This document shows positions 903 to 57,312 of a stretch of DNA of 57,312 bases, piece by piece. The stretch's first letter is position 1. Each line of letters starts with the position of its first letter. The translations under genes and the position numbers were made by a program. The notes under the pieces were generated by a model. That model was not told the origin of the DNA, did no database searches, and worked only from the letters and a program-made list of their open reading frames with translations. The stretch is from a virus: positions 1-57,312 of IMG/VR virus record IMGVR_UViG_3300022725_000257. The stretch is one strand, 5' to 3'.

Positions 903-948
903 CATAGTATTGAGCAAAATTGAAATCCTAATATAAAGGGAAATGGTT

Positions 949-1452
949 ATGAAAAAAGAAATATTACAACGGGTCAAAACGCAGCTCAAAAATAATTGGT
1001 ATGTAGATCAGGACGACATACAAGCCCTTATTGATATTGCTGAACAGGCTGATATCGAAAAGATAAGAGATATCGTAGATGATGAATTGTGGGACGTTTT
1101 TTCAAGCTCACAACTTAACAGGCTTCACAGAGCGTTCGACAGCGCAAAAAAACAATTAGTAAAAGATAAAAAACCGCAGCACACCCCGCACAAAGTGTAT
1201 CAAAGCTTATTTGATTTCTTTCATATAGAGCACAGGCTGGTCTTAACGGAGGGTGAAATGGATGATATTGTGTATGTCGTCAAAGAATTCATAGACCATT
1301 CACATCAAAGATATATCGAGGATACGGCAGAATTTACGGTAAGGATAAAATCACCCGCAGCCGAGGAGACCTATGTGTATCCACTTGATGATTTTAACCG
1401 GTTCAGAAGACTATACAAAAAATTTGTTCGGAAAAAATTAAATAGAAAGTAA
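949..1452 (+). CDS. Hypothetical protein in multi-gene cassette block
   Basis: 167 residues, acidic N-terminal half with helical character, basic C-terminus ending KKFVRKKLNRK. No family recognised. The start at ATG 949 is preferred over 943 because AAAGGG at 935-940 lies 8 bases upstream. The start overlaps a GTTATGA string that looks like an R' box, but no matching L''-L' arms flank it, so this could be a decayed attC or chance. It is followed after three bases by the next gene. Confidence 0.6.
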   Translation: MKKEILQRVKTQLKNNWYVDQDDIQALIDIAEQADIEKIRDIVDDELWDVFSSSQLNRLHRAFDSAKKQLVKDKKPQHTPHKVYQSLFDFFHIEHRLVLTEGEMDDIVYVVKEFIDHSHQRYIEDTAEFTVRIKSPAAEETYVYPLDDFNRFRRLYKKFVRKKLNRK

Positions 1453-1455
1453 AAA

Positions 1456-1761
1456 ATGAAAGCACCTGATAAAATATACCTACAAATTGACGAAATAGAA
1501 CACAAAGACTCAACTTTTGAAGCAGTTACTTGGTGCAAAGATAGAATCAACGATTCAGATGTTGAATACATAAGGGTTGATAATGTTCTCAAAAGCCTAA
1601 ATGATGAACTTAAAAAAATGCCTGATGAAGAACTTTTAAATTTTGTAGATGAGATAGAAAAATGGTGTTATTTAGGCATAAATGATGAGCCTCATATAAG
1701 TCTTAATGGCATTATTAGGGCAATAGAAATTCTTGAACAAAAACGCAAAGAAAACTTGTAA
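1456..1761 (+). CDS. Hypothetical protein, phage-type small protein
   Basis: 101 residues. The opening IYLQIDEIEH and the later DVEYIRVDNVLKSL recur in many small phage proteins of unknown role that end one strand with a YIR motif. The rest is acidic and helical. The gene starts 3 bases after the preceding stop and its TAA overlaps the ATG of the next gene, so it belongs to a compact operon within one cassette-sized unit. Confidence 0.6.
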   Translation: MKAPDKIYLQIDEIEHKDSTFEAVTWCKDRINDSDVEYIRVDNVLKSLNDELKKMPDEELLNFVDEIEKWCYLGINDEPHISLNGIIRAIEILEQKRKENL

Positions 1762-1940
1762 TGAAAGAACTTGTATTTGTAACCCTTGATTGGGCAGCGA
1801 ACCCTATAACTACGATTGATGGACAGATTTTGCCCCGAAAAGCAGAGATGTTGCTCAACGGGGACTATTACCCAAACAACCGTGTTGGCGAGTGGCCAAG
1901 GAACCCTAAAACAGGCAAAAAACTTCCTATATATGAGTAA
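1761..1940 (+). CDS. Small hypothetical protein (59 residues)
   Basis: The ATG at 1761 overlaps the TAA of the previous gene, and the stop TAA is at 1938-1940. The translation begins MKELVFVTLDWAANPITTID and ends GKKLPIYE. Its regular spacing between two overlapping neighbours argues that it is real. The frame used here differs from the longer frame that begins at 1816. No family recognised. Confidence 0.6.
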   Translation: MKELVFVTLDWAANPITTIDGQILPRKAEMLLNGDYYPNNRVGEWPRNPKTGKKLPIYE

Positions 1941-2286
1941 TAAAAATAATCCGTATTCCGGTATGAACCCTCTTGATAAATTTCCGCACCCCTTTGATCC
2001 TAAGTACGAGGAAAAAATGAAAAAGTTAAAAAGAAATGACCCCGACAAATTTGTTAATTGGCCGCTGGTAAATGGCAATTATAGTACAAAAAATGGAAGC
2101 AGAGTTACAATATTTGGCAAACGCAATGGATGTAGCCAAGTAGACTTCGATTGGTTTGAAGAAGGTGGGTGTGTTGACTGCATCCCGCAGCCATACCCGG
2201 AAAAGTATGATAATAATGATGTGCGGCTTGTTTGGCACTGTGATGTTTGCGGTGGTGGATCTGCAAAACTATACAAAGATAAATGA
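1933..2286 (+). CDS. Hypothetical cysteine-containing protein
   Basis: 117 residues. I chose ATG 1933, which overlaps the end of the preceding gene, over an in-frame ATG at 1816 that would run across that gene. The N-terminal third (DKFPHPFDPKYEEKMKK) is proline and lysine rich. The C-terminal part holds four to six cysteines including VDCIP and WHCDVCGGG, suggesting a metal site. Last gene before attC9. Confidence 0.55.
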   Translation: MSNKNNPYSGMNPLDKFPHPFDPKYEEKMKKLKRNDPDKFVNWPLVNGNYSTKNGSRVTIFGKRNGCSQVDFDWFEEGGCVDCIPQPYPEKYDNNDVRLVWHCDVCGGGSAKLYKDK

Positions 2287-2307: not shown

Positions 2308-2437
2308 GGGTAACGTTGCTGCAATTAAGCGGCGGCGTTAATCAGGCCCGTTGGACTATGGAAACCGTTAATCTAATATTTTAATTGAGACTGTAATAAG
2401 GACGGCCTTGCCGTCCGACTTAAATTGCTTGTTATAT
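2308..2437 (+). other. attC9 recombination site
   Basis: R'' GGGTAAC is at 2308-2314 and R' GTTATAT at 2431-2437. L'' GCAATTAAGCGGCGGC pairs with L' GCCGTCCGACTTAAATTGC. The last part of the loop forms a strong hairpin GGACGG-cctt-GCCGTCC that uses the same L' bases and so competes with the attC fold. The start codon of the HNH gene overlaps R'. Confidence 0.88.
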
Positions 2438-2774
2438 GCCGATTGACTATAGCGAATACCCGGAAAATTGGAAAGAGATAAGCGAGTACATTCGTTTTGA
2501 GCGTGCTGGTAACCGATGCGAAAGTTGCGGAGCTGAAAATGGAAAGCCGCACCCTGTTACTGGTAGTAAGGTTGTTTTGACAGTAGCACATATTCGACAT
2601 GAAAAATCGGATGTGAGGTATAACCCTGATGCATATGATCCTGACGATGAGGAAAATAATTTAGTGGCAGAATGCCAAAGATGTCATCTTACAAGGGATG
2701 CAAAGTTGCACGCTCGAAACCGTAAATACGGTCGAAAGCATAACCGTAAAGAACAACTGCGCTTAGGCATATAA
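2436..2774 (+). CDS. HNH endonuclease, cassette-encoded
   Basis: 112 residues. Zinc-binding and catalytic elements are visible in order: CESC at 28-31, the AHIRH histidine at 52 or 55, NNLVAEC with N74/N75, and CQRCH ending at H84. This is the compact HNH fold of phage and mobile-element nucleases (compare HNHc family proteins of 90-120 residues). The ATG overlaps the R' box of attC9 (GTTATATG), so any ribosome site must come from the upstream cassette. TAA lies in R'' of attC10. The adjoining cassette encodes a DNA methyltransferase, so the two could act as a nuclease-methylase pair, but that is inference. Confidence 0.88.
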   Translation: MPIDYSEYPENWKEISEYIRFERAGNRCESCGAENGKPHPVTGSKVVLTVAHIRHEKSDVRYNPDAYDPDDEENNLVAECQRCHLTRDAKLHARNRKYGRKHNRKEQLRLGI

Positions 2775-2889
2775 CGTGGGAGGCGTAAGCGGTCAGGCAG
2801 AATTATGAATAACGAAAAAGCAAATACTATGAATAAGCAAGAAACTGTAACCGGACAAGAAGCCTGTCCGCTTGACGCCTTTGTTATAG
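2770..2889 (+). other. attC10 recombination site
   Basis: R'' TATAACG is at 2770-2776 and R' GTTATAG at 2883-2889. L'' GGCGTAAGCGGTCAGGC pairs with L' GCCTGTCCGCTTGACGCC. The loop contains ATG 2805 and ATG 2829 in the methyltransferase frame and an alternative hairpin CGGACA-agaagcc-TGTCCG. Confidence 0.9.
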
Positions 2890-3524
2890 CGCAAAGGGAG
2901 GCGCTCGAAGCATTGCGGGAAATGCCCGATGATTGCTGTGATATTTTTACAGACCCGCCGTACAATGTTGGAAAAGATTATGGTGTTTGGGACGATTCAA
3001 TGCCCGATCAAGAATATGAACGGTGGATAAGTGATGTTCTGACTGAATGCAAAAGGGTTGCCGTTAATATGGTTGTTTACGTTCCTAAAAAATGGAATTT
3101 ACTTTACTGGAATGTTCTTGGTGATTCATTTCAGGAAATAATACTCCCATTTAGACCGGCCGGTGCAATACGGTATGGGTATTCAAATCAGTTCAATAAG
3201 CTACTTACAAATGCGAGACCGAAAAGGGAAAAGCCGGTACTCAACGTTTGGGATAATATGCAACAGCCGGGGCTTGGATTCTTTTTTAGAGAGGATACAT
3301 TAGGCAACCCCGGCTACACATCTGAGGCAATTACACGAAGGGCATTGGAACAGCTTTTGAGCCATGAATTTATTTATGACCCGTTTATGGGTGTTGGAAC
3401 TACTGCCGTTGCCGCTGAGAAAGCCGGAAAGAAATGGGCAGGAACTGAGCTTAATCCTGAATTTATTGAAAAAGCATGGACACGAATACATGAATACAGG
3501 AACCAACTTGAACTTGCGCTATAA
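2805..3524 (+). CDS. Beta-class DNA N4/N6 methyltransferase, N-terminus from attC10
   Basis: 239 residues. Catalytic motif IV DPPY is at 50-53 (FTDPPYNVG) and the SAM-binding motif I follows near the C-terminus (YDPFMGVGTTAVAAEKAGKKWAGTEL), the order of beta-class N6-adenine or N4-cytosine methylases. The enzyme normally has a segment like GDALEVLREMPD before DPPY; here REALEALREMPDD starts only two codons after the R' box and has no ATG of its own. Translation must therefore start at 2805 or 2829 inside the attC10 loop, or at a rare codon. The stop is inside R'' of attC11. Length is short for the family but complete. Confidence 0.85.
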   Translation: MNNEKANTMNKQETVTGQEACPLDAFVIAQREALEALREMPDDCCDIFTDPPYNVGKDYGVWDDSMPDQEYERWISDVLTECKRVAVNMVVYVPKKWNLLYWNVLGDSFQEIILPFRPAGAIRYGYSNQFNKLLTNARPKREKPVLNVWDNMQQPGLGFFFREDTLGNPGYTSEAITRRALEQLLSHEFIYDPFMGVGTTAVAAEKAGKKWAGTELNPEFIEKAWTRIHEYRNQLELAL

Positions 3525-3643
3525 CGGTTTAGCGTTTGTGCGGCGCTTTAATAAAGTTAATTAGAATAACAAAATTTATAATCCAATGATTAAGCAAAAA
3601 ATAGAACAAGAAAAAGCGTCCGATACGAAACGCATTGTTATGC
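3520..3643 (+). other. attC11 recombination site
   Basis: R'' TATAACG is at 3520-3526 and R' GTTATGC at 3637-3643. L'' GCGTTTGTGCGGCGCTT pairs with L' AAGCGTCCGATACGAAACGC. The loop contains ATG 3586, in frame with the next gene. Confidence 0.88.
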
Positions 3644-3846: not shown

Positions 3847-3932
3847 GCATAACAAAAGTTTCTGTTGCAAGCCGGACAAGGTGTGGACAACCTTCATGCG
3901 TTTAGCTTGTCAGCAGGAAACTAAGGTTAGAA
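3847..3932 (+). other. attC12 recombination site
   Basis: R'' GCATAAC is at 3847-3853 and R' GTTAGAA at 3926-3932. L'' AGTTTCTGTTGCAAGC pairs with L' GCTTGTCAGCAGGAAACT over about 16 positions, with two extra bases on the L' side. This is the last recognisable site of the array; its arms differ from all others, which supports site-specific covariation. Confidence 0.82.
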
Positions 3933-3940
3933 AAATTAAC

Positions 3941-4420
3941 ATGAAAATAATATTTTTAGATATTGATGGTGTATTAAATTCTAACGCTTGGTTTAAAAGT
4001 GAAGAATATAATATAAAAGCAAAAAATATGTCTTTTCCTGATACACATCTGGATAAAAAATGTATTTTTAATTTAAATTATTTGTGCAATTTATCTGGTG
4101 CGGATATCGTGATTAGTTCTACTTGGCGTGAATTTGATTATTGTGCCTCAGCTCTGAGGAGAAATGGTGTTACTGGTAATATAATAGGCACTACACCATG
4201 TTTAAGAAAAAAGCTTGAAAACGGTTTATATATAGGCAAAACCCGAGGGGAAGAAATTCAGGCTTGGTTAGATAATAACGGTTACGAATTCTATGTAATA
4301 ATAGATGACTGTTCTGATATGCTTAGATCACAAAAAAAATATTTCGTCCAGATAAATGGAACAGTAGGTTTAACTAAAAATAATGTTTTACAAGCTCTTA
4401 AAATTTTAAATATTGAATAA
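3941..4420 (+). CDS. HAD-fold phosphatase or polynucleotide-repair-type protein
   Basis: 159 residues. It opens MKIIFLDIDGVLNS, the HAD motif I with nucleophile D7 and acid D9. Motif II is in DIVISSTWRE (Ser/Thr), and a late acidic DDCSDM matches motif IV. The short cap-less layout and TWRE motif match the HAD domain of the Swiss-army-knife RNA repair type (family known; function here inferred). I start at ATG 3941 after the R' box of attC12. No attC follows, so it is either the terminal cassette or one that lost its site. A degenerate relative lies at 11628-12083. Confidence 0.78.
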   Translation: MKIIFLDIDGVLNSNAWFKSEEYNIKAKNMSFPDTHLDKKCIFNLNYLCNLSGADIVISSTWREFDYCASALRRNGVTGNIIGTTPCLRKKLENGLYIGKTRGEEIQAWLDNNGYEFYVIIDDCSDMLRSQKKYFVQINGTVGLTKNNVLQALKILNIE

Positions 4421-4425
4421 TTGAT

Positions 4426-4678: not shown

Positions 4679-5338
4679 TTAATTTAAGTTTCTCTTTGAT
4701 CTGTTTCTTAATATATCATTAATTTCATCAGCAGTATAAACACTATTTCCTAATGTGTGTATTTTTTCTGTTACATTAGTGGCTTCATTTTTACCAATAA
4801 TTCCTTTACGCACAGCATCACTTATTTGATCTGTTATGTGTTTTGCCCACTTCTCTAATCTGTTTGATGACATTTTCCCATATACAATCATACTTTCCCG
4901 GGCTTCATCACTGTTATGCGGTGTTCCTTCCATATATAATCGTAATGCATAAGCTGAAACTATCAACCAGGATTCATTCATTCTTTCATACCGGTTGCCA
5001 TTAATTGGTTCAAAGGAATCACATGCGCTTGCAAGTGCATCCGCTAAATGCTCAATGAGCATAGCATTTGTTGGGGCAATCTTTTTTACATACACTAAAT
5101 ACTTTATCTGATTAAGCATCAGATCATAAAGAACCTCTTGATCTTCTTCAGGGATCTCAATTTTTCCTTGATCATCTACATCATGATGCTCTGTATAAAC
5201 AGGCTTACCAACACGTTTATAAAAATCGAGTGATTTTTGCTTTGATATCTTTTCATTATAAAAGCTCAAAGCAAGCGATGTTGAAGCAATTGTTATAACC
5301 AATAGTAGGATACATAAAATTAATATAGGTGTAGTCAT
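4679..5338 (-). CDS. Membrane-anchored hypothetical protein
   Basis: 219 residues. A single strong N-terminal hydrophobic segment (residues 4-26) is followed by a soluble, mainly helical domain containing paired segments such as LIEHLADALASACDSF. Last gene of the leftward set and directly downstream of the helicase gene. No family recognised; topology suggests the bulk is cytoplasmic or periplasmic behind an anchor. Confidence 0.65.
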   Translation of the reverse strand: MTTPILILCILLLVITIASTSLALSFYNEKISKQKSLDFYKRVGKPVYTEHHDVDDQGKIEIPEEDQEVLYDLMLNQIKYLVYVKKIAPTNAMLIEHLADALASACDSFEPINGNRYERMNESWLIVSAYALRLYMEGTPHNSDEARESMIVYGKMSSNRLEKWAKHITDQISDAVRKGIIGKNEATNVTEKIHTLGNSVYTADEINDILRNRSKRNLN

Positions 5339-5364
5339 CTTTTTTTTTATGATTTAATTTATTA

Positions 5365-6792
5365 TTAAAATGGCTGATCGTCATCGTCCAAAGGAAGATT
5401 ATGTGGCATGTTCTGTGTACCTACAGGTCGTAAGGATGGTTTTCTATCATCTCTGCCCGGGTTTTGGGTACGCCATTCTGCATAATGTGAAATAAAATCC
5501 ATTTTAAATGTCCCGAGCATTCCATTCCTGTTTTTTGCGATATCAATAAATCCAATACCAGTTGTCGATTGCCCTTTGTATTCATCGTGGCCAAAAAGTT
5601 CCGGGCGGTTTAGAAATATAACACAATCAGCATCCTGTTCCAATGTACCACTCTCTCTTAGATCATCCAGTTTTGGTTGAGCGCCGGGCCGTTTAAGACA
5701 TTCCCTTGATAATTGTGAGCAGGCAATAACCGGGGTGTTGGTTTCTTTAGCCAAAGCTTTAAGGCCTCTTGATATACTGGATATCTCTTGCTCTCTGTTG
5801 CCTTCTTTATAGCCACTCATTAACTGCAAATAATCAACAAAAAGCATATCATAGCCTTGTGTTACTTTTGCTTTATATTTAGCGGCTAATTCATGTATCC
5901 CTATTGCAGGGGTGTCTTCTATGTATAAATCAGAATGGTATAACTTCTCGCTTGCCTTCATCAGATGATCCATATCATCCTTATTTATAGATCCTGATCT
6001 TATCTTAGTGAAATTTACACGACTTTCAAGAGCCATTTGTCTAAGTATTATGTCCCTATTTACCATTTCACCATTCCATACGAAGGGCCGGCGCTTAAAA
6101 TCACTTTTAAGGGATGCTGCATAAAAAGCGTTCTTTATAATGAACGCCGATTTACCAACGCCAGGTCTTGCCCCAATAATATAAAGACTGCCATCCTGAT
6201 AACCGTTGGTGTATTTATCTAATGGAGTTCCGGTTGGGGCGCCAGAAAGCCCGGGGTTTTCCTTGCGATACTCAATATATTCAAGAGCCTGATATATAAT
6301 ATCTTTACTATATCCACCTGTTTCATTATAAAAATCTGTTCCAAGTTTTGATGCTAATGAATTTAGTTCCCCAATAAGTTCCCGGCTATCCGAAGATTCA
6401 CTGTAGGCTTTATTGGCCACCTCTGTAGTTAATAAAATTAGATCTCTCTTTGCCTTTTTATCTTTGAGTATATCAATATAATCTAACGCAACTCGTTCCC
6501 CTACTCCGTGATCGGCAGCAATTTGATAAATTGATTGCTCACCTCCAGCTTTTTCAAGTGTCTGATTTTTTCTAAGCTGCTCAATGATTAAATTTGTATC
6601 AACTTTTTTATTGTTGTTATACAGATCTAATATTGCTTTGTATATAACCCTGTGTTGCGGGGAGTAAAAAACTTCTATATTTTGCTTTAACTCTTGTATA
6701 CATATATCAAGCATGTCTGGCATAAACATCATGCTTGATAATAACTCTACTTCAATTTCTGTTGCCTGCGGCGGTATCTTTGCGTTGTCCAT
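5365..6792 (-). CDS. dnaB: Replicative DNA helicase, DnaB family
   Basis: 475 residues, normal length for DnaB. The N-terminal primase-interaction domain is followed by the RecA-like core with Walker A GARPGVGKS at 207-215 and Walker B MLFVDYLQLM at about 316-325. Later helicase motifs are present in ACSQLSRE and LRESGTLEQDADCVIFLNRPE, including the arginine-finger region. The C-terminal tail ends with acidic DDDDQPF, similar to SSB-type tips. It unwinds phage DNA as a hexamer. The DUF4373 protein is immediately upstream, separated by two bases, and may act as its loader. Confidence 0.96.
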   Translation of the reverse strand: MDNAKIPPQATEIEVELLSSMMFMPDMLDICIQELKQNIEVFYSPQHRVIYKAILDLYNNNKKVDTNLIIEQLRKNQTLEKAGGEQSIYQIAADHGVGERVALDYIDILKDKKAKRDLILLTTEVANKAYSESSDSRELIGELNSLASKLGTDFYNETGGYSKDIIYQALEYIEYRKENPGLSGAPTGTPLDKYTNGYQDGSLYIIGARPGVGKSAFIIKNAFYAASLKSDFKRRPFVWNGEMVNRDIILRQMALESRVNFTKIRSGSINKDDMDHLMKASEKLYHSDLYIEDTPAIGIHELAAKYKAKVTQGYDMLFVDYLQLMSGYKEGNREQEISSISRGLKALAKETNTPVIACSQLSRECLKRPGAQPKLDDLRESGTLEQDADCVIFLNRPELFGHDEYKGQSTTGIGFIDIAKNRNGMLGTFKMDFISHYAEWRTQNPGRDDRKPSLRPVGTQNMPHNLPLDDDDQPF

Positions 6793-6794
6793 AT

Positions 6795-7793
6795 CTATGT
6801 TCTAAAACTTGGTAAAAATAATTCTTTCCCTTCTACAACTTTCGATTCTCTCCAAATATGTTCTTCGGGATCTAATCCTCTCTCTTTACAAACTTCTTTA
6901 TATTTATCTTGCCTCAACCAGCCTGCTTTTAAATAATCAGAAACTGTATTCATTTTATTCTGAGTTTCATTAAAGGCATACCACCGGTCAACCCATTTAT
7001 CTATAGCCTCCATTTTTTTTCGGCCGTAATAGGTATTCCAATCCCTGCGATGGGCTTCTTTTATCATATTGCTTCTTGCTCGGACTTCTAATCCGCCAAG
7101 TAACTCCCTGCCTGTATAAACATTTAATGCTCTTTTAATGTCTTTCTTTTTTTTAGGTGTTAACCTGGTATTTGCATCACTTAGTTTGTTAAAAGAATCA
7201 ACAAAGCTTTTATAATCAATCTTCCCGCCAGAATATTTTTCTTCAGATGATGCAACATAAGGTTCAATATCAGTGTTGCCAATGCCCTCATTATCTTCAT
7301 GATTGTCAACATTGACATCCTTATTGTTAACATTTTTACTTTGTTTGTTAACAATAGTTACATCAAAACTTACAGAGCCAAGCTCTTTTTCCACATAATT
7401 ATCAACATCAATAAGTAAATATCTGTGATCGAGTGTTATAGATTTTCTGCGCTTGCAGGCCGCGATGAAGCTCTTTTGTATATCTTTGCTTGTTAATATG
7501 CCATAAGTTTTAAACATCTTTTTATCAAATACATTAGCATAAAGCGCGTGCTCAATAAGATTGTTGATAACTTCCTTACTCACCGGATACTCCGGCCGGT
7601 TGTATTCAGCTATATATAGCATAATAAAGTCATCATCAACAGCAAGGTAATAGCCTTCCTCAAAAAACATTTTTTCGAGAATTGTCCAGTAAAAACCAGC
7701 CCCAGGCAAACCCGTTAAAGAACTATAAATTTTTAACGGTTTAGTTTGCATTGCGGTAGATGAGTGAATAAAAAAATCAAGACCTTTATTCAT
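6795..7793 (-). CDS. DUF4373-type replisome organiser or helicase loader
   Basis: 332 residues. The first 100 residues match the Lin1244/Lin1753-like (DUF4373) pattern: a start GLDFFIHS, a run GLPGAGFYWTILEKMFFEEGYYL, and a second helical segment. A low-complexity asparagine-rich linker (about 165-190) separates a C-terminal helical part that ends in a Trp/Tyr-rich segment as in DnaD-type domains. Such proteins bind the origin and recruit the helicase. The position directly before dnaB supports this. The start overlaps the end of the next upstream gene by 8 bases. Confidence 0.75.
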   Translation of the reverse strand: MNKGLDFFIHSSTAMQTKPLKIYSSLTGLPGAGFYWTILEKMFFEEGYYLAVDDDFIMLYIAEYNRPEYPVSKEVINNLIEHALYANVFDKKMFKTYGILTSKDIQKSFIAACKRRKSITLDHRYLLIDVDNYVEKELGSVSFDVTIVNKQSKNVNNKDVNVDNHEDNEGIGNTDIEPYVASSEEKYSGGKIDYKSFVDSFNKLSDANTRLTPKKKKDIKRALNVYTGRELLGGLEVRARSNMIKEAHRRDWNTYYGRKKMEAIDKWVDRWYAFNETQNKMNTVSDYLKAGWLRQDKYKEVCKERGLDPEEHIWRESKVVEGKELFLPSFRT

Positions 7794-8055
7794 TATGCCG
7801 GTATTTACGAAGTTCTATAATCTTCTCTCCTCCGTATTCTTTGGGTCTGTGGTACTCAATAAAGCCTTGGTTAATTAACTTATATAAATGATCCCTAAGC
7901 CGGCGCTTTCCCATTTGGCTATCTTTAGCTAAAAAACTTTGTGATTTTTGTATGCGGTTCTTTTTGAAAGTCCAAAGATACAAAAAGGTAGATATAACTG
8001 GGGGAGAAAGGCCGAGCGCATTACAGTCTCGTATAATGTCCTGTACTTGTTTCAT
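7786..8055 (-). CDS. Winged helix DNA-binding protein
   Basis: 89 residues. A helix-turn-helix is visible around residues 35-65 (SFLAKDSQMGKRRLRDHLYKL) followed by a wing GFIEYHRPKEYGG, the layout of MarR- or RepA-like winged helices. A likely role is origin binding or control of early genes, inferred from the neighbouring replication genes. It overlaps the following gene by 8 bases. Confidence 0.65.
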   Translation of the reverse strand: MKQVQDIIRDCNALGLSPPVISTFLYLWTFKKNRIQKSQSFLAKDSQMGKRRLRDHLYKLINQGFIEYHRPKEYGGEKIIELRKYRHNE

Positions 8056-8098
8056 TGATATAGTTGTTTTGTTATGGTTAACATATCTGGATCAGGTA

Positions 8099-8968
8099 TC
8101 ACTTTTTTTTTACAGACTCTGGAACATTGTTAATAAGCTTGCCGTATTTTTGCTCCATTTTATTAAGTATTTTTTGTGCTGCACCCACTGATAAATTTCT
8201 TTGAACAATACGTATTTCACCTGTTTCTTCATCGGTTACTTCTTTGTATATAAACGGTTGCCATTCATCGGCTTCATTGGGATTTTGCAGGTGCATAAAA
8301 TACGCTTCAATATCTTCTAACATCTTTTTTGATGCTGGTTTTTTTTCAGCCACAACAGATTGTTTTTCAACTTGTGTTTTATTTTCAACCCCCAAGTGTT
8401 TTTCTTCTTCATGCAAGGCCTCGCTTGGCAGAACCGGCTCTTTCCAATAAAACTTTATGTATTCAGGCTTTCCGTTTTGTTTTTTTACTTTGCTTTTAAA
8501 CTGGTATGAATTCCATCCAGGCTGCCAACTGTTGCTAACCTCGACCCCAATTTGTGGTACAAGTTTAAGATACCTTCCAATACCTATTTTACTAAGCACC
8601 CTTTTCTCGGCAAAGGCTAAAGCACTTTCGAGCGCTGTTAAGGTGAACTGTCCTCGTTCCCTGGTATCAAGAGTAGCCCCCTCACTTTTTTCTATCCAAT
8701 CAGATTCTTTATTCTGTCGAATTTTTATTGTAAACCTAACCTTTTCTCCCGGTAAAAGCTCAAATTGATTTTGCCAATTAAACGGGCCAATTACGCTATC
8801 AAGGCGATGCTCTGCTGATTCTTTTTTAATATAAGGTGTTGCAAATGCCTTAATTACATAGCCATTTTTACTGTTGTAGTCATAGGCGCTTACAATAACC
8901 CATTCTATATCATCAACTTTAAATTTTTCGGATAGCTTTTCGTAAATTTCTTTTTGATCTTTATTCAT
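8099..8968 (-). CDS. Rad52-family single-strand annealing protein
   Basis: 289 residues. The N-terminal 150 residues carry the Rad52/Rad22 pattern: an early VISAYDYNSKNGYVIKAFA-like strand set, the VIGPFNWQNQF motif, the conserved G-A-x-D-T-R-E-R-G stretch and the LTALESALAFAEKRVLSKIGIGRYL helix. The C-terminus is a linker plus a helical tail. It anneals complementary single strands in recombination-dependent replication and works with SSB and the RuvC-like resolvase encoded nearby. The gene is read from one half of the symmetric divergent promoter at 8992-9026. Confidence 0.88.
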   Translation of the reverse strand: MNKDQKEIYEKLSEKFKVDDIEWVIVSAYDYNSKNGYVIKAFATPYIKKESAEHRLDSVIGPFNWQNQFELLPGEKVRFTIKIRQNKESDWIEKSEGATLDTRERGQFTLTALESALAFAEKRVLSKIGIGRYLKLVPQIGVEVSNSWQPGWNSYQFKSKVKKQNGKPEYIKFYWKEPVLPSEALHEEEKHLGVENKTQVEKQSVVAEKKPASKKMLEDIEAYFMHLQNPNEADEWQPFIYKEVTDEETGEIRIVQRNLSVGAAQKILNKMEQKYGKLINNVPESVKKK

Positions 8969-23139: not shown

Positions 23140-23142
23140 ATT

Positions 23143-51400: not shown

Positions 51401-52453
51401 GAAGATCCGGAGTGGTATAAATCTATGGCAAAAAGTATAACCCAGATTATAGCTCCACCATTTACTGCCCCCGGTCTTGCTGTCCCAGCAGAGCTTTGGG
51501 CTAATAAAAGTTTTCATACCGGCGCTCCTATTGTATACCGCCGCCTTAAAGGGTTAGAGTCTTGGCGGCAATACAATTCATATACATCGGATTTTTCAAA
51601 AAGAGTAGGTAAAAAACTTGATCTTTCTCCTGCTATGATTGATCATACAATAATTGGTTTCACAGGTCTCTGGGGGCGAACAGCGCTCAACCTTTCTAAT
51701 TCTGTTAACCCGAATGCCCCAAAAAACGGGTTAGACGACACGTGGGTAGCCCGAAGATTTATTCGCTCCTCAGACCGAGGATCAGCGAGCGAGAGAAGGT
51801 TTTGGAGGTCTGCTGCTGAAGATGAGGGAACCTTTATTACTCGTGCTGCGACATTTAAGGTAGAAGTTGAGGCCGCTGGGGTTGAGGCCGGCCAAGATTA
51901 TTATAACAGTTTAGAAGATCATTACAGGATGTATGCTGCACGTAAATATTTCGACAAAGAAATACGTGAACTTGTACCCGGAATGCAAGTGGATCATCCT
52001 CTTGATCATGCACGAAAAGCATCAAGAAAAATATCACAATTTCGCCGGGAGATATTTGATGAACCCGCCGACCCCGATGAAGGTGAAGTTAATGTATTCA
52101 CGAATATGGCCCCCGATAAAAAACAATTGGCTGATGACCTGCTCGACCGCCTTGCTACAAAATATTATCGTAACTCTCTTATCGCAAGTGGCGACCCGCG
52201 ATGGAAAGGAAGAAGTAAATTTGATTTTGAAGAAACCTTAACAAAAATACGTGTAGAGTTCCCCCGGTTGTTTGTTGAGATCAGGAAAAGATTCTCTCAA
52301 GATACTACCCCGATAAACCCACAACGCCAATACGATGTATACCAGCGGTTCATGAACAGTGATGAACTAAAAACCCGCGTTGATCGGCAAGTCGCCGCAG
52401 AGTTAAGGAAAGTACGTAACCGAATTAACATAAGAAACCGCGAAGATGGATAA
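45404..52453 (+). CDS. Giant polyvalent internal virion protein with zinc protease and LPD38-like domains
   Basis: 2349 residues, the largest gene. An early Gln-rich head-like region is followed by predicted membrane-active glycine-rich helices (about 255-295 and 385-410). A metalloprotease core is near residue 1171: HEAGH, with EGFAEFFRLY downstream giving the third ligand. The LPD38-type region (about 1700-1880) contains FIANIVRDQVSAWIL, RLSIFQRAFQKAKKRG and RRLVPFLNAGIQGLDKA. It is probably ejected with DNA and delivers proteolytic or host-acting functions. The end overlaps the lysin by 8 bases. Confidence 0.7.
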   Translation: MDELERLFNAIQQTGVIQDLPDLETFRSSLTGNQQAQQNLHQVLSNSDKFTDIPDFETFRQSLFNRQGQPTESPGGSTDPAQPAPALPSTELPDIRNQPFEQRGFNQQTQPDELTPQQRIGGLNLRAQQLERQARESRFTQPDNTRVANPVFQNAARRAREQRDQLLQSLDTGQSRISSAANSLAKGLANTLGTDTIKSIGVVSAITNPFNPAASVSNLANIEENPVFSVGAELGRKVEETFPTNPAFQEEMLTSVLPTGLASIIAFGLGGLATRGLKLGSSLGSGALGALSVSGNEFQRAIDEGADPEEAFGVWLLNLPVGGIEAIPIANSLKKLDEATAGGVRGVLSQGFSGGMEELVQEVGQNFASNAIGKGLVNQTRSLFEGVAEGGAAGFILGGLMRGTTTAIGNQLNKLSAEQQEELKKFQETLNKEIDKSKGSFYQPTGTLFSRQAGDEGRTVIREIDLGPSVVIDPSAPPQVLADQLQNAEQEAQRQRKVQSDAGNTQAVEALEEQIERISFARQELIKETISSPNPNQPVVNDQQLTSEGQELLQRVDSGGQPGFVTNNMRRVAVENGIEVNERTTVEDIIGDLRERQNFPQPQPVSQLESQEGVNPVEASAEILPDIGIKVDSQQLTGAPTTTDLSLSMAVRDNEGNVFTAPREEAPNHLAIFERFDLNVENTDGGGFLTPDGRYLSRNEAAQYQQAVTGRAGAVPGVLFSEDFVPPPPQNEEVETLGGATFVEVTSDGPVVRDITGNPIPENDARATRSLAEFFSTQTSPAGQVQRTQRDSDLTFARRVAQESTNPVQIANELANLEDLQGSQDSEIQNNLRERFEQVTGTELSPQLAAGIQQQTARQNPQPVTLSLSQQEGRVDEGFEVPVGRTLGSRTGQNLSPEIVLGAVDGGEFFDNAASSVESTLAASSRETIVYMTPEQFLNLAGGPTQDSGGLSQDTLIDALESLDEGFDVLPSLNLRTVQGTESMQVSKASHAEIVQVLSDEGVNMIPVKVSHPTIQFSKNRGALRTIFTAHSDNNPEQIADNIGRRETGLQSAIYPSDIDERNIADSGRREIPESGDPGLGEGSRSELIGPARQTAGTGDAQLAGALSRDSGPQERVQDPVRFRDLINEVIKALKINVKKGKLSSSDAIGQFNTSTGQILVKNTEAIDIILHEAGHDIEFRNQDLQGLLRVHAEELIPLKYESAPDIVARQEGFAEFFRLYMLNPKAAEKAAPNFNRDFQKWLQSDPPAYEPGIFDKLEQVRTGHQLFLRQASDQAVDADVRQSPSKVHTFLQVLKENSISDIWNNFKNRAYSLIIGNDRALRLALDRLKQIHFENTGESIDFGPLYDFYKLNRLSIDSYSAAAMDLEHGVMNYHTTKNEGPGLREALEVALGDDWSSQRRREFSGYLVGRRMVNEWDRFFAGELPNRPSKLTKIDYEAKIEFAESENPSFKKAADMINEYNRNMLQKLVDSGLIEQAAANRMQAKIPFYVPLYREQNKEDGIKPFTENAVGLADKARNSLIKAFGGSDKEVIDPIESMMKLTYRFNNAIKHNDTKVALLNSLNIAGRGSAEIGQEIEAFQVTPKTISGEEIKKALSKQSDWAALDELDAELLSLSMLDLDNFDFPDATIFRTSEINEKGRPIIYARVNGKVRAIQLNNNELGMEIYNTLTSQPSKNADIIANSLAYPASVLRTGITTEPSFFIANIVRDQVSAWILTDVGVKPGISLAGDLLTRARENIKGFQGPATKGEGVDEKTQREYSRLYRSFAGISTFNLSAIDDGRIQKEIENLKKKNIVIRRLTSVKAFNELLDLSETGTRLSIFQRAFQKAKKRGLSDREAAIEAGFEARDFIDFGRHGSATLYARRLVPFLNAGIQGLDKATRVLSGEGKLRQVLLPFIKDVNGRPLTPQEQREVTAARKAWLKVMEIGSIGAILAAIYADDEDYNEISPQLKATHWFLPDPTHDPKEPGPRKFIGVPKPFELAVVSNIMENAIEGYRQEDPEWYKSMAKSITQIIAPPFTAPGLAVPAELWANKSFHTGAPIVYRRLKGLESWRQYNSYTSDFSKRVGKKLDLSPAMIDHTIIGFTGLWGRTALNLSNSVNPNAPKNGLDDTWVARRFIRSSDRGSASERRFWRSAAEDEGTFITRAATFKVEVEAAGVEAGQDYYNSLEDHYRMYAARKYFDKEIRELVPGMQVDHPLDHARKASRKISQFRREIFDEPADPDEGEVNVFTNMAPDKKQLADDLLDRLATKYYRNSLIASGDPRWKGRSKFDFEETLTKIRVEFPRLFVEIRKRFSQDTTPINPQRQYDVYQRFMNSDELKTRVDRQVAAELRKVRNRINIRNREDG

Positions 52454-52991
52454 ATATAAAGAAGTTATAGACCAAAACGGGGGTAATTTTACCTTAGATG
52501 AATTTGCTGTTATAAAAGGAACAACGGCTGAAGATATTGATTTCGATCATTTCAGGGCAGATATAAAGTTTCGTGCATGGCACGGTTACCCAACAATGAT
52601 TACTTCTGCATTTCGCCCCGGGGACGATGGCGCTCATGGCGATGGATTGGCAACAGATAAAATATTGTTTTATACTTACCGTGAGCATGTTGTTGAACCT
52701 ATTGTGCAATGGAGGCTTGCGACCACATTCCCCTGGATGGGAGTTGGTTTATATTTTGATTGGTATTTTACCGACCGACAAGGCCGCCAAAGAAAAGCTT
52801 GCGGTATTCATACCGATAGCCTTGTCAATAAAAACAGGCCCCTAAGGTGGATTCGTACAACAAAGATTATTGATGATGAAAAAGTCAGGTTGTATTATTA
52901 TCAAAACCCTCATACTGGTTTGTTTTTTAACCAGAAAACAAATGAACAAATAACTTTAGATGATGCAATCAGAAACTTTTGGACCACATAA
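52446..52991 (+). CDS. M15-family peptidase endolysin
   Basis: 181 residues. The motif SAFRPGDDGAHGDGLATD (about 54-71) matches the S-x-R ... H-x-x-G-x-A-x-D of D-Ala-D-Ala carboxypeptidase-type endolysins with ligands H64 and D71, and GIHTDSLVNKNRPLRWIR (about 120-137) gives the second histidine at H122. The late GVGLYFDWY strand and the HTD motif are typical of M15A. It cleaves peptidoglycan cross-links for lysis or entry. No signal peptide is seen. The holin follows. Confidence 0.8.
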   Translation: MDKYKEVIDQNGGNFTLDEFAVIKGTTAEDIDFDHFRADIKFRAWHGYPTMITSAFRPGDDGAHGDGLATDKILFYTYREHVVEPIVQWRLATTFPWMGVGLYFDWYFTDRQGRQRKACGIHTDSLVNKNRPLRWIRTTKIIDDEKVRLYYYQNPHTGLFFNQKTNEQITLDDAIRNFWTT

Positions 52992-53037
52992 TCACGAATG
53001 TTCTGTAACAAATGGTTCGTTAAAATATCATAAGAGT

Positions 53038-53535
53038 ATGTTAAAGGCATTTTTTATTGAACCATTTTTACATTCGGTTAAAGGCATTTTTGAACATATA
53101 TACATAAAGACTATTTTAGGATTAACAGCGCTTCCGGCGTTATTAGCTTTCGAGTTGTTTAACACACCGTCATTGTGGTGGAAGGGTTTGTTGTGGTTGG
53201 TTGTATTAGACTGGCTGTCTGGGGTTATAACGGCGATTTATAACAAAGAATTTGACTGGAATATAGCTATTAGTAAATGGTATCAAGTAGCAAGTTATAC
53301 TATTATTTGCGCATCAGCATCAATCGTTGCGAATACTTTTGGCGGCTACTTTAGTTATTTTCAATATGTAGTGTATGCAACATTATTTTTAAAAGAATTT
53401 GTTTCAATCCTTAAAACTTTTAATGTGCTTTCTTTGATACAAATTACCCATGCATTTATTGTAAGCGATAAAGGAGAATCTGGTATTCGTGAATTTATTA
53501 AATATCTTAACGAACAAAACAAAAAAAAGGAATAA
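53038..53535 (+). CDS. Holin, toxin-secretion/holin-4 type
   Basis: 165 residues from ATG 53038; a longer frame from 52960 overlaps the lysin and is less likely. Three hydrophobic segments: ILGLTALPALLAFELF, KGLLWLVVLDWLSGVITAI and YTIICASASIVANTF, with the signature LVVLDWLSGVITAIYNKEF of the holin-4 family (TcdE/Cph1-like). It makes pores that release the lysin. The lysin lies immediately upstream and other small membrane proteins follow. Confidence 0.85.
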   Translation: MLKAFFIEPFLHSVKGIFEHIYIKTILGLTALPALLAFELFNTPSLWWKGLLWLVVLDWLSGVITAIYNKEFDWNIAISKWYQVASYTIICASASIVANTFGGYFSYFQYVVYATLFLKEFVSILKTFNVLSLIQITHAFIVSDKGESGIREFIKYLNEQNKKKE

Positions 53536-53538
53536 CAC

Positions 53539-53838
53539 ATGGACATAATTACAGAGTTTTTAACCCCAGAAACGATAACTGGAATTATCGGTTTTATTGT
53601 TGTTGCTGTTGCTGGTAAATTAGGCATAGACTTTATCACAGAAATCGAAAAAATTTTTGAAACCATTAAACGAGCTTTTTCAGAAGATAGCGATGAAGGA
53701 TCTGAATTAAGTGAGCCAGAAAAGCAGGTGGTCAAAGATGAACTATTTGACCTTGCCTTAAAGTTTTATGGTAAGTACCGTAAAACAATAACTGGCCGGT
53801 TGGTAAAAGGAATATCAAAATTTAAATTTTGGGGGTAA
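53539..53838 (+). CDS. Small membrane protein in the lysis block
   Basis: 99 residues with one hydrophobic segment at about 13-26 (ITGIIGFIVVAVAGKLGI), then a charged helix and basic end. A good ribosome site (AAGGAAT) precedes the start. The partner to the next membrane protein, with which it overlaps by 10 bases. Possible antiholin or spanin-like, unproven. Confidence 0.55.
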   Translation: MDIITEFLTPETITGIIGFIVVAVAGKLGIDFITEIEKIFETIKRAFSEDSDEGSELSEPEKQVVKDELFDLALKFYGKYRKTITGRLVKGISKFKFWG

Positions 53839-54341
53839 TGATGGGAAGACCAATTCGCGAATGGGGTATTGTACGTGCTATCACAAAGAAAGTTCCTAAA
53901 CTTGCCGGAGAAGTTGCCGGAGGAATCGTTGAAGTGATAACCGGTGAAAATCCTGTTGAAGTTGTAAAAGAGCGTATCAGTAAAAAAATTAAAGAAGACA
54001 AAGAGATTAGCCAGTCTGATAAAAATGAACTTATTAAACAACTCGAAGAAACGATGTCCTTGGCTCAACTTGAATATAAAGACCGCGTCAATGCCCGGCA
54101 AACAGAAGTAGATCGCCTAAAGCACGGTAAATCCTGGTTAGCCCAAAACTTCCTATATATATTTAGTTTATTTCTGTTGCTTATAGGTACAGGTATGATC
54201 ATAATGATGTTCTTTTTTCATATTCCTGAACAAAATGAAGACATGATAAAATCTGCCGTTACTATATACTACACAGTAGGTCTCTTTGGAATGTTTCAGT
54301 ATTTCTTTGGTGATGTTGAAAAGAATCGTATAGGTAGATAG
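53829..54341 (+). CDS. Membrane protein of the 3TM-holin or accessory type
   Basis: 170 residues. Basic helical N-terminal half followed by two hydrophobic segments (NFLYIFSLFLLLIGTGMIIMMFFF and IYYTVGLFGMFQYFFG). Resembles Holin_3TMs-like proteins in which a charged region precedes membrane helices. It is the last gene before the terminator and the cassette array. Confidence 0.55.
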   Translation: MGVMMGRPIREWGIVRAITKKVPKLAGEVAGGIVEVITGENPVEVVKERISKKIKEDKEISQSDKNELIKQLEETMSLAQLEYKDRVNARQTEVDRLKHGKSWLAQNFLYIFSLFLLLIGTGMIIMMFFFHIPEQNEDMIKSAVTIYYTVGLFGMFQYFFGDVEKNRIGR

Positions 54342-54456: not shown

Positions 54457-54552
54457 ATGTCGAATATTTACAATTTTTTACAACAGCCATTGATTTATTT
54501 TTTTATTTTTGGTAAAAAACCACCTCCCGATTGGTACAACCGATTGAACCGA

Positions 54553-54589
54553 GACGGCTCTGTCGTCTGACTTAAATTGCTTGTTATGC
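54553..54589 (+). other. Half attC site at the left border of the array
   Basis: Ends CTGACTTAAATTGCTTGTTATGC, identical in its L'-R' part to attC2 and attC9, and has the same kind of hairpin (AGACG...CGTCT) before it. The R''-L'' partner is missing or decayed (a weak GCATTAAGCAGC candidate overlaps the terminator). It may be an entry site of attI-like or residual type, but no attI features are visible. Confidence 0.6.
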
Positions 54590-54765
54590 TTACAGAAATC
54601 GACAAACTATTTGGATGCGAAGAAGAATACGATAATGTTTTTGAGGCTGAGATAGATCAGGAGCTGCAAGAGGCGTTTGAAGACATGTGGTGCACCTGTG
54701 GAGCCTATGTAATTCGAAATGGAAAGATAAAAAAAGAAGCAGACTGTTTATGTGGCTATGGATAG
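54586..54765 (+). CDS. Small zinc-ribbon-like cassette protein
   Basis: 59 residues. The pattern CTCGAY...CLCGYG holds four cysteines in two CxC pairs, suggesting one zinc ion. An acidic N-terminus precedes it. The ATG overlaps R' (GTTATGC) of the left half site; an upstream in-frame TTG exists at 54577. No family recognised beyond the likely ribbon. Confidence 0.6.
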   Translation: MLTEIDKLFGCEEEYDNVFEAEIDQELQEAFEDMWCTCGAYVIRNGKIKKEADCLCGYG

Positions 54766-54768
54766 TAA

Positions 54769-54863
54769 GCATAAGGTATTTGCAAATAAGCTGCCCGCGA
54801 AAGTCGTAGGTTGCACAAAATAATAATAACTACAAGCAGGTCAGGTTGATACGATTGTTATGC
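54769..54863 (+). other. attC1 recombination site
   Basis: R'' GCATAAG at 54769-54775 (AAC changed to AAG) and R' GTTATGC at 54857-54863. L'' GCAAATAAGCTGCCCGC pairs imperfectly with L' GCAGGTCAGGTTGATACG. The arms resemble those of attC4, indicating a shared family. Confidence 0.7.
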
Positions 54864-55387
54864 CTCCCAATTACAAAGATGTATTTTTTATAATTGATTA
54901 CGAAACAACAGGTGTTGGAAAAAATGATGTACCAATAGAGGTTGGTATTATTGTAACAGACTCTGAATGGACTGAACTTGACAGAATGGAGTCTTTAATC
55001 TATTCGGATTATTCAATTCAATTGCCCCCGGACTACTGGGATAAGGCAAAAGAATTTCACGGTATTGATCAGGAAACAATTAAGCATAAGGGAATATTTG
55101 CAAGCCGTGTAGCAAAGAAAATACATGATTTAGCAAAGAAGTGGAATCCAGTTTGTGGTCGTGTAATTCTTCTTTCTGACAATATTCAGTTTGAATGGAA
55201 ACACACACAATGGCTTTTTAACTACATTGATTTAGACGTGACAGACATATTCCATTACTGTGGGTGGGATACTTCATTACTATCATTGTTTACTTCATTC
55301 AAAGACCCATCTGGTACAGATCACAGGGCGCTATCAGATGTTGAGGGACTTTTGAATGAATTAAGGAGAGTAGCTAAGGAGGGATAA
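54860..55387 (+). CDS. DEDDh 3'-5' exonuclease
   Basis: 175 residues. Exonuclease motif I is IIDYETTG (D13, E15), a FHGID follows, motif II is in LLSDNIQFEW, and motif III is HRALSDVEGL with its histidine and aspartate. This is the DEDDh exonuclease domain as in RNase T and the Pol III epsilon subunit, in a compact stand-alone form. It trims single-stranded or mispaired ends. Start overlaps R' of attC1; stop TAA is inside R'' of attC2. Confidence 0.88.
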   Translation: MPPNYKDVFFIIDYETTGVGKNDVPIEVGIIVTDSEWTELDRMESLIYSDYSIQLPPDYWDKAKEFHGIDQETIKHKGIFASRVAKKIHDLAKKWNPVCGRVILLSDNIQFEWKHTQWLFNYIDLDVTDIFHYCGWDTSLLSLFTSFKDPSGTDHRALSDVEGLLNELRRVAKEG

Positions 55388-55474
55388 CGTTGCTGCAATT
55401 AAGCGGCGGCACTAACTGAACAGAAATCGAAACTAAGGGCGGCTTTGCCGCCTGACTTAAATTGCTTGTTATAT
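55382..55474 (+). other. attC2 recombination site
   Basis: R'' GGATAAC (55382-55388) and R' GTTATAT (55468-55474). L'' GCAATTAAGCGGCGGC pairs with L' GCCTGACTTAAATTGC. An alternative hairpin GGGCGG-cttt-GCCGCC uses the L' side, as in attC9. Confidence 0.88.
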
Positions 55475-55476
55475 AT

Positions 55477-55671
55477 ATGACGACAAAGGAATTTTTACTT
55501 GAAAAAGAACTGAACTGGACTCGAATAGAGGAAATGCAGGAAGAATTGAAACGGAATCAAAAAACGATTGATGATCTTATAAAGCGTAATGATGATCTAT
55601 ATGCAAAAATGCAGATAATAGCCCAAGACATGCAGAAAAAAGCTGAGGAGCTTGATAAGGTATATGTATAA
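55477..55671 (+). CDS. Small coiled-coil cassette protein
   Basis: 64 residues from ATG 55477 (the frame is open upstream to TTG 55462 inside the site). Heptad-type coiled coil over almost all the length (EEMQEELKRNQKTIDDLIKRNDDLYAKM). No enzyme motif. The TAA lies inside R'' of attC3. Confidence 0.55.
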   Translation: MTTKEFLLEKELNWTRIEEMQEELKRNQKTIDDLIKRNDDLYAKMQIIAQDMQKKAEELDKVYV

Positions 55672-55843
55672 CGGGGAGCTTCAACCAATAAAGAATTAAA
55701 AATGAGCAAAAAACTTAGAGAACAATTTGTGAAAGAAACCGGCAAATCTCCTGCTGATTGGGAGATGGACAGCCCTGTATTTCACCCAAAATATGTTGAA
55801 TGGTTAGAAGCAAAAGCCGGTCAGCACGAACCGATTGTTATGC
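55666..55843 (+). other. Possible attC3 recombination site, weak
   Basis: R'' GTATAACG at 55666-55673 and R' GTTATGC at 55837-55843, but the L'' GAGCTTCAACC and L' GGTCAGCACGAACC pair poorly. Kept because the box pattern and overlapping stop codon are the same as elsewhere. Confidence 0.4.
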
Positions 55844-56004
55844 CACAAAATGAAAGTGAGAAACAGGCCTTTTTTATTGTTACTGTTATGAGAAATATGA
55901 ATAAAGATGAGGTTGAAATGCTTTGCGAAAATCTGCTTGCGAGATATGATATTAATTTACCACGATTGATACAGTGTGTAGAGCAAATTAAGGATGTGCT
56001 ATAA
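55702..56004 (+). CDS. Small hypothetical cassette protein
   Basis: 100 residues from ATG 55702 (LREQFVKETGKSPADWEMDSPVFHPKYVEWLE) or 54 residues from ATG 55840, which overlaps R' of the weak attC3. The longer form has an N-terminal region typical of small phage proteins that end one unit with KYxxWLE. If attC3 is a real site, its L'-R' arm is read in frame. Stop lies in R'' of attC4. Confidence 0.6.
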   Translation: MSKKLREQFVKETGKSPADWEMDSPVFHPKYVEWLEAKAGQHEPIVMPQNESEKQAFFIVTVMRNMNKDEVEMLCENLLARYDINLPRLIQCVEQIKDVL

Positions 56005-56094
56005 CGAAATTGCAAATAAGCTGCCTGCGAAAATCGCAACAGCTTCATATTAAACACTAACTGCAAGCAGGTCAGCTTGATTTGCTTGTTATAC
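56000..56094 (+). other. attC4 recombination site
   Basis: R'' TATAACG (56000-56006) and R' GTTATAC (56088-56094). L'' GCAAATAAGCTGCCTGC pairs with L' GCAGGTCAGCTTGATTTGC with two extra bases on L'. Confidence 0.9.
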
Positions 56095-56107
56095 TGCGAG
56101 GTAGATT

Positions 56108-56437
56108 ATGGGACTTGATTTTGGACATACCTGCCCTGATATAGACAGGGGAATCGAAGCATTTAAGGATGATTTAAAAATGTTTTTGAGCGAAGTAATA
56201 GATGATGTTTGTCCTTTACTCGAAGGTGAAGTGAAAGATGATCTTGTGAAAAGTTACGCTGATGATATTTATAACGAGTTTGGGGGTAATTTTGAGAATG
56301 TCAGAAAAACCAATGAAGAAATGCGAAGTGAAGCGGACAGGCAAATTGGTGAATTACAGGATGAGGTTGGTGAATTACGATCAGAAATAGAAGACCTTAG
56401 ATACCAACTGGAAAATGAAAGGGCATTAGCAGTGTAA
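56108..56437 (+). CDS. Coiled-coil cassette protein
   Basis: 109 residues. A helical N-terminus (CPDIDRGIEAFKDDLKMFLSEV) is followed by a predicted coiled coil at about 65-105 (MRSEADRQIGELQDEVGELR). It has its own ribosome site (GCGAGG before ATG 56108), unlike several neighbours. No family recognised. TAA lies in R'' of attC5. Confidence 0.65.
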   Translation: MGLDFGHTCPDIDRGIEAFKDDLKMFLSEVIDDVCPLLEGEVKDDLVKSYADDIYNEFGGNFENVRKTNEEMRSEADRQIGELQDEVGELRSEIEDLRYQLENERALAV

Positions 56438-56552
56438 CGTGTGAGGCGTAAGCGGCAAGCAGATTAGAAATTTATGGAAGCTAAAAAACTAAATAAGATG
56501 AATGAAACGAAAACAAAGGCTGAAGCTTGTCCGCTTGATGCGCTTGTTATAC
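56432..56552 (+). other. attC5 recombination site
   Basis: R'' GTGTAAC (56432-56438) and R' GTTATAC (56546-56552). L'' GGCGTAAGCGGCAAGC pairs with L' GCTTGTCCGCTTGATGCG. The loop carries ATG 56474 in frame with the next gene. Confidence 0.88.
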
Positions 56553-56566
56553 AACCGGAGATGATT

Positions 56567-56827
56567 ATGAGTAATGGACAAGATAAAGGTAATAACACAT
56601 ATACAGATTACAGTTTTCAAGGTCAATCACCGTTTGCAGAGAATGCGGTATCATTGCTTTTGGCTGACAATTCAAGTGTAAAATATAAAGGCGAAGAATT
56701 TGAGGCAATACAGTTTCATTATGAGTGTCAAGAAACAGAGCAGTGTTTTACTACAGATGAAATTGATGAAATTAACATTAGAATAGTACTCGCTTCTTAT
56801 AGAAATAGAATGCTTTTAAAGCAATGA
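56567..56827 (+). CDS. Small cassette protein, YgiT/MqsA-N-like fold candidate
   Basis: 86 residues from ATG 56567, preceded by GGAG; the frame is open back to ATG 56474 in the attC5 loop. The segment VKYKGEEFEAIQFHYECQETEQCFTTDEIDEINIRIVLASYRNRML resembles the N-terminal part of MqsA- or Panacea-type antitoxin-associated proteins, in which a strand, a Cys-containing pair and a YR-motif helix follow one another. Only one of the usual cysteine pairs is evident, so the assignment is tentative. Confidence 0.45.
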   Translation: MSNGQDKGNNTYTDYSFQGQSPFAENAVSLLLADNSSVKYKGEEFEAIQFHYECQETEQCFTTDEIDEINIRIVLASYRNRMLLKQ

Positions 56828-56832
56828 GGTTG

Positions 56833-56961
56833 TATAACGGATGGAGCATAACCGGCAGGCATTACAGGCAATGAATTTGAAACAACTAATAACTGAACTA
56901 TAAATCAGCAATAGCTGATGCCGGACAGCTTGCCTGTCCGCTGTTGATGCTATTGTTATAA
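56833..56961 (+). other. attC6 recombination site
   Basis: R'' TATAACG (56833-56839) and R' GTTATAA (56955-56961). L'' GAGCATAACCGGCAGGC pairs with L' GCCTGTCCGCTGTTGATGC. An alternative hairpin GGACAG-cttgc-CTGTCC uses the L' side. Confidence 0.88.
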
Positions 56962-56978
56962 ACACACGGAGCGGTAAA

Positions 56979-57173
56979 ATGAGCACAGATGTAGAAAAAT
57001 TAGATTGGGAAAAGGCAAGAGATTATTTGTCTCGATGTGAAGAGGCATATACCGCTATTGGTAGTGCTGGATCATTTGCAATGAATTTTGTGATAACGCC
57101 TTTGCGCGATAGGCTTAATTCAGGTGAAAGAACTGAACAGCTATACAATGAGATTATGGAGATTGCAATATAG
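56979..57173 (+). CDS. Small hypothetical cassette protein
   Basis: 64 residues, helical (WEKARDYLSRCEEAYTAIG, PLRDRLNSGERTEQLYNEIM). A weak ribosome site CGGAGCGG precedes ATG 56979. No family recognised. attC7 starts 12 bases after the stop and continues into the start of the window. Confidence 0.6.
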   Translation: MSTDVEKLDWEKARDYLSRCEEAYTAIGSAGSFAMNFVITPLRDRLNSGERTEQLYNEIMEIAI

Positions 57174-57185
57174 CGGAGTGTGTTT

Positions 57186-57312
57186 ATAACGTGGTAGCGT
57201 ATAACGGGCGCAGAGATTATGAGTGAATTAAAGACTGAAAATATCGAACTAACTGAAACCGAAAACAACGGCAAGTCTGCGTCCGCAGTTGATACGCATT
57301 GTTATAGCAACG
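57186..57312. repeat. Terminal direct repeat, copy 2
   Basis: Exact second copy of bases 1-127. It contains the R'' side, loop and L'-R' side of attC7 and the first codons of the PD-(D/E)XK-like gene that continues at the start of the window. Confidence 0.95.

Follow-up and report, generated by a model that had tools for sequence, protein, structure and literature searches.

Integron cassettes normally depend on the integron promoter and bear the attC site at their 3′ end. Groups of at least two nearby attC sites without an intI gene are designated CALINs. The available text of Qi et al. (2023, PMC9892861) reports 17 CALINs in phages, three of them in characterised virulent phages, as well as recombination by IntI1 of five of the six phage attC sites tested and divergent attC directions in phage P12002L. 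The earlier note on the DNA analysed here had held integron arrays to be known solely from chromosomes and plasmids, which these published phage CALINs contradict. As far as that text goes, the CALINs from phages TJE1, P12002L, PH101 and others resemble the array described here in being attC arrays without IntI and in including methyltransferase cassettes; in contrast to them, our array has eleven complete, inverted sites with start codons in their loops, and its locus is occupied by a different array in a relative. The same text (PMC9892861) contained no mention that we could find of inverted polarity or attC-coded starts.

Sedentary chromosomal integrons share with this array the attC structure, with covarying arms and extrahelical bases, and one or few genes per cassette, but they have IntI and attI, whereas no IntI was found in our phage and its genes run opposite to the attC direction. 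Unusual gene directions also occur in the reverse-type integrons of Treponema (PMC3607928), although there it is intI that is reversed relative to attI, and the available text does not describe an inversion of attC with respect to the genes. These integrons were considered as the origin of the inversion reported below, and set aside.

Location of the array in the phage genome

The window, i.e., the whole stretch of DNA analysed, corresponds to a viral record 57,312 bases long, whose two ends share an exact repeat of 127 bases. It contains genes for a terminase, a major head protein, tail proteins, a DnaB-like helicase, a replication initiator and an Erf annealing protein, so that terminase, capsid, tail and replication genes of a phage are together in a single record. 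An array of small plus-strand genes and hairpin-forming sites, spanning positions 54769-57312 and 1-3932, is situated between the lysis-side genes and the replication-side genes (4679 onward, minus strand). Phage genes adjoin both of its ends, as the earlier note had proposed, and its G+C content (0.393) is close to that of the backbone (0.398). The features of the region are listed below, with the matches to two covariance models, R1, built from the window sites, and R2, built from 67 bacterial attC sites and zero window sites.

52446..54341, plus strand: phage backbone left of the array; one of its genes is holin-like
54545..54589, minus strand: half attC site at the left border (L″-R″ arm only); arm matches sites B and I and gives the ATG to the first cassette ORF (54586-54765)
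54769..54863, minus strand: attC site A, R′ being the left arm; R1 60 bits, R2 20.9 bits (E=0.03)
54860..55387, plus strand: cassette gene, RNase_T/DEDD exonuclease-like (PF00929, E=7e-12; phrog_192); ATG within R″ of site A
55382..55474, minus strand: attC site B; R1, R2 (E=3e-8)
55820..55843, minus strand: half attC site C, lying within ORF 55702-56004 and limited to the right arm; a complementary left arm was sought and not found
55999..56094, minus strand: attC site D; R1, R2 (E=8e-11)
56432..56552, minus strand: attC site E; R1, R2; loop ATG (56474) in frame with ORF 56474-56827
56832..56961, minus strand: attC site F; R1, R2
57184..57307, minus strand: attC site G; R1, R2; coincides with the 127-bp end repeat
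34..576, plus strand: cassette gene, phrog_631 family (E=3e-37, from residue 36); ATG in the loop of site G
571..692, minus strand: attC site H; R2 67 bits (E=3e-14); loop ATG (636) into ORF 636-902
943..2286, plus strand: several genes with no internal attC; block 943-1761 found elsewhere in the array of relative L002; gene 1963-2286 common to the prophage-like array of genome G039
2308..2437, minus strand: attC site I; R1, R2
2436..2774, plus strand: cassette gene, HNH endonuclease (phrog_1571, E=2e-21)
2769..2889, minus strand: attC site J; R1, R2; loop ATG (2805) is the start of the methyltransferase ORF
2805..3524, plus strand: cassette gene, N6/N4 DNA methyltransferase (PF01555, E=5e-18)
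3519..3643, minus strand: attC site K; R1, R2
3847..3932, minus strand: attC site L, divergent; R1 26 bits, no R2 match; common to L002, with one arm change compensated
3941..4420, plus strand: last cassette gene, HAD_SAK_2 (PF18143, E=2e-30); the ORF listed as 3845-4420 takes in sequence inside site L
4679..8968, minus strand: phage backbone right of the array (unknown gene, DnaB helicase, replication initiator, Erf), conserved in L002
23143..23784, plus strand: phage tyrosine recombinase, 213 aa (phrog_216), not an integron integrase

The end repeat (57186-57312, identical to 1-127) starts two bases within attC site G and stops five bases past it. Thus, the end repeat behind the proposed closure of the genome into a circle does exist, but the case for closure is weakened, because circularity rests on a recombination site; for the same reason, additional cassettes or array variants may hide at this point. 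Branching of assembly graphs at recombination sites, if it occurs, would lead one to expect a contig break at site G. Both borders of the array are inside the contig and are independent of closure.

The phage had also been described as lytic-type, which is unsupported given its 213-aa tyrosine recombinase and the presence of two similar arrays in regions resembling prophages. No match to the major capsid protein was found among annotated phages. When the left-border gene, one cassette protein and two attC sequences (at the DNA level) were used as queries, no relevant relatives were retrieved; a second cassette protein yielded a weak relative only. Promoter scans of the array gave results at or below chance. 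In the early region of the phage (14200-20025) there are repeated stretches, evident as several alignments with L002 and L006.

Structure of the attC sites

The plus-strand genes are separated by eleven complete, two-armed attC sites and two half-sites; the attC architecture recognised in the earlier note was thus correct, its count of twelve full sites was not. The R″/L″ and L′/R′ arms pair and covary around a variable loop. Under the specified attC structure, pairing was found in 87% of the cells for the eleven sites, with 11 pairs altered on both sides, and the covariation score was not reached in any of 500 shuffles; when the partner was shifted by 1-3 columns, pairing fell to 32-47%. The complementarity and covariation read from the letters were therefore borne out.

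Model R1 matched textbook attC sites, including that of aadA1 on plasmid R46, several sites of Vibrio phage Va_90-11-286_p16 and those of phage TJE1, where the ends of the matches were the exact ends given by an independent finder and the strand was opposite to the genes. The reciprocal test with R2 is stronger evidence for attC than these matches. Because A2 was aligned to R1, R2 has the structure of R1 and is not independent of it in this respect. In the window, R2 recovered nine of the eleven sites at E<=1.6e-7 and site A (54769) at E=0.03, missed site L (3847-3932), whose R-box neighbours are unlike those of the other sites, and had no other match at E<=0.5. The search with attC covariance models, as proposed earlier, thus did find attC. 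These sites are real attC; their recombination by an integron integrase is a prediction.

There were zero Rfam matches in the window. A home-made scan for arm pairing was discarded as too loose (58 hits vs 35-52 in shuffles), and marine viral pattern hits L008, L010-L012, L014, L015 and L017 were not counted, with no match or about 14-15 bits.

Polarity of the cassettes

Known attC sites carry their extrahelical bases on the R″-L″ arm, and the strand used switches when these bases are moved to the other arm; additionally, in the bottom strand a G directly follows the AAC of R′ (PMC2727003). In the minus-strand reading of the window sites, R′ is the TATAACG arm, with the bottom-strand AAC followed by the conserved G, and R″ is the TTGTTA arm; the extrahelical bases are on the right-hand arm, which is then R″-L″. 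Since the extrahelical bases and the R boxes place R′ at TATAACG and R″ at TTGTTA, the plus (coding) strand corresponds to the attC bottom strand. The first assignment, with R′ as GTTAnnn, R″ as TATAACG and the extra bases on L′, has accordingly to be reversed. In a standard cassette the gene runs along the attC direction and has the attC at its 3′ end, whereas all window sites are inverted: the strand matched by the models is that of the genes in the window, and the opposite one in R46, TJE1, the Vibrio phage and two MAG arrays.

We found attC sites of this type in 79 of 245 genomes from the class of MAG LKNA01 (submitted as Chitinophagaceae). The counts of normal vs inverted gene direction at bacterial loci were 62 vs 14 and 149 vs 26 in two overlapping samples, from a site set gathered by the window's own model and to be compared with phage sites that are non-independent samples. 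Among the inverted bacterial exceptions are L088, which is the array of a phage-like region of genome G039, and a prophage-like region of genome G032. A search for terminase across the G014 class (245 genomes) was negative. Five lineages of phages or prophages had callable genes, and in all of them every callable site was inverted; besides the window, inverted arrays occur in:

Phage G006, with terminase, portal and capsid genes
Phage G004, with helicase, primase and RecT genes
Genome G039, at the end of contig C12, with repressor, replication initiator, DnaB and terminase genes
Genome G032, in a prophage-like region with repressor-like, methyltransferase and primase genes

Phage P12002L looks inverted at two candidate sites, and the sites of the Vibrio phage and those checked in TJE1 are normal, so that inversion is not universal in phages. 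Inversion is the unusual feature of this array. By provisional gene calls, six successive sites were called inverted beside a chromosomal intI at L111:9932-12951 (genome G036).

attC sites as possible leaders of the cassette genes

We examined the loops of the phage sites of at least 85 bases (n=22) for start codons. In 13 of them a loop ATG opens a frame that continues through R″, and all 13 are in frame with the downstream gene; site L is among these, and is the weakest. Such an open ATG occurred in 23 of 126 canonical bacterial sites when these were read the same way (Fisher p=1.5e-4), and shuffling of the loops yielded 5.1 on average and 11 at most, vs the 13 observed. The ATG of the L002 site and those of the two L028 sites are preceded by a stretch resembling a ribosome binding site. 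For ORF 636-902, the sole nearby alternative start past the attC is a TTG at +61; the leader genes of sites E, K, L and possibly G have another start codon directly after the attC.

The family match of the methyltransferase starts at residue 26, with the attC stopping at residue 28, and that to phrog_631 starts at residue 36, near the attC edge. The gene common to the window (1963-2286) and G039 shows 69% identity; in the G039 copy an attC-coded N-terminus replaces the one that the window copy has of its own, and both continue with FVNWPLVNG. Since the attC sits 5′ of its own gene, it can act as a portable leader. The in-frame leaders, together with these three genes, whose similarity to their relatives sets in only at about the attC edge, favour translation from the attC, supporting rather than proving it. 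At L093:14829-15035 there is a 207-base attC whose loop codes for a zinc-ribbon-like segment (CxxC...CxxC) in frame with the next gene.

Variation of the array in a related phage

Sequence L002, from another metagenome, is about 91% identical to the window across 9 kb of backbone and carries an array at the same junction; this comparison, suggested in the earlier note, shows one locus with largely different cassettes. In the 1.9 kb of its array that are visible, only the 943-1761 block and attC site L match the window, in a different order. Site L is common to both, with different genes on both flanks. Exchange at this site does not correspond to a simple single crossover on the R′ side, and homologous recombination may contribute. 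The right array border in L002 contains a decayed stretch resembling an attC arm (GCGTGTGAGGCTTAAA; 4420-4490 in the window, 1900-1950 in L002rc), and the left border is a half-site with the other arm.

The array could be an ordinary phage CALIN, a piece of a host integron captured by chance, in which the direction of the genes would be meaningless and the leader frames accidental. Phages with CALINs are indeed already described in the available text of Qi et al. (PMC9892861), and bacterial arrays also hold some inverted cassettes. However, a chance event fits poorly with the inversion of every callable site in five separate lineages of phages or prophages, with leaders in frame in 13 of 13 cases, above chance, with the phage-like nature of several cassette genes (methyltransferase, HNH, exonuclease) and with the conservation of the array locus in L002. 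We consider this explanation unlikely.

Recombinases and putative host

Neither the phage nor L002 carries an integron integrase gene (intI): in a comparison with the integron integrase model TIGR02249, the phage genome reached 14.6 bits on a fragment, the cut-off being 265. Having eleven sites, with neighbours never more than 3 kb apart, and no integron integrase, the array is a CALIN. All seven tested genomes of the G014 class scored above the TIGR02249 cut-off, and none of three phages did; the likely agent is thus a host IntI acting in trans. The attC type and one common cassette gene suggest that the host may belong to the G014 class.

It is very improbable that the 213-aa tyrosine recombinase of the phage mobilises the cassettes instead of a host IntI. 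A tyrosine recombinase is present in relatives G001 and G002 too, but that of the window is short and XerC-like, with the fragmentary match indicated above, and phage G006 has inverted sites yet no TIGR02249 match. This recombinase, seemingly without an N-terminal domain, is encoded after a 216-aa protein of unknown family (both genes at 22489-23784). The pair seems to be conserved in the same order in L007 (5125-6386) and may be a split recombinase.

Discussion

An assembly chimera joining a host integron to phage contigs might be suspected from a closure that runs through a repeat-like element, the end repeat being an attC site, but is barely credible with both borders within the contig, the right one seen again in an independent metagenome, nearly equal G+C in array and backbone, and a polarity unlike that of most host arrays. 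That a cassette array lies inside a phage genome, as originally proposed, is upheld by the covariance models and by a second phage with an array at the same junction.

The explanation that we favour, and hold to be quite probable, is that of a phage CALIN of inverted cassettes, moved by a host integron integrase in trans, whose attC sites double as portable 5′ leaders with a start codon. We infer the movement by host IntI, the use of the loop starts and the benefit to the phage. The cassettes form a row without integrase at a fixed but variable locus, the junction of lysis and replication genes, each consisting of an attC followed by a gene, with the coding strand as the recombinogenic bottom strand and a predicted crossover (TATAA^CG) at the stop codon of the preceding gene. 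During infection, the integrase of the host chromosomal integron would fold and recombine the sites in trans, and cassettes would be gained, lost and moved in this way. In about half of the sites, translation would start at the loop ATG and pass through R″ into the cassette gene, adding about 12-56 residues. We lean slightly towards a broader proposal, in which phage lineages share a pool of inverted cassettes whose attC is both a recombination site and a translation leader with an added N-terminus, and in which inversion places the recombinogenic strand on the non-template strand, where it could be exposed by phage transcription.

Although cassette arrays in phages are already published, inverted polarity across phage lineages and attC-coded starts appear to be undescribed, as suggested by a search of published journal articles, few of them subscription papers. 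Surveys of sites that are blind to gene direction would overlook the inversion. If true, cassettes with a leading attC and a start codon would be self-contained translation units, which would account for the capture of genes without a start of their own and make phages active users of host integrons. The gene common to G039 also bears on the formation of new cassettes, since it shows an attC joined within a coding sequence. These results suggest a distinctly viral use of the bacterial integron system.
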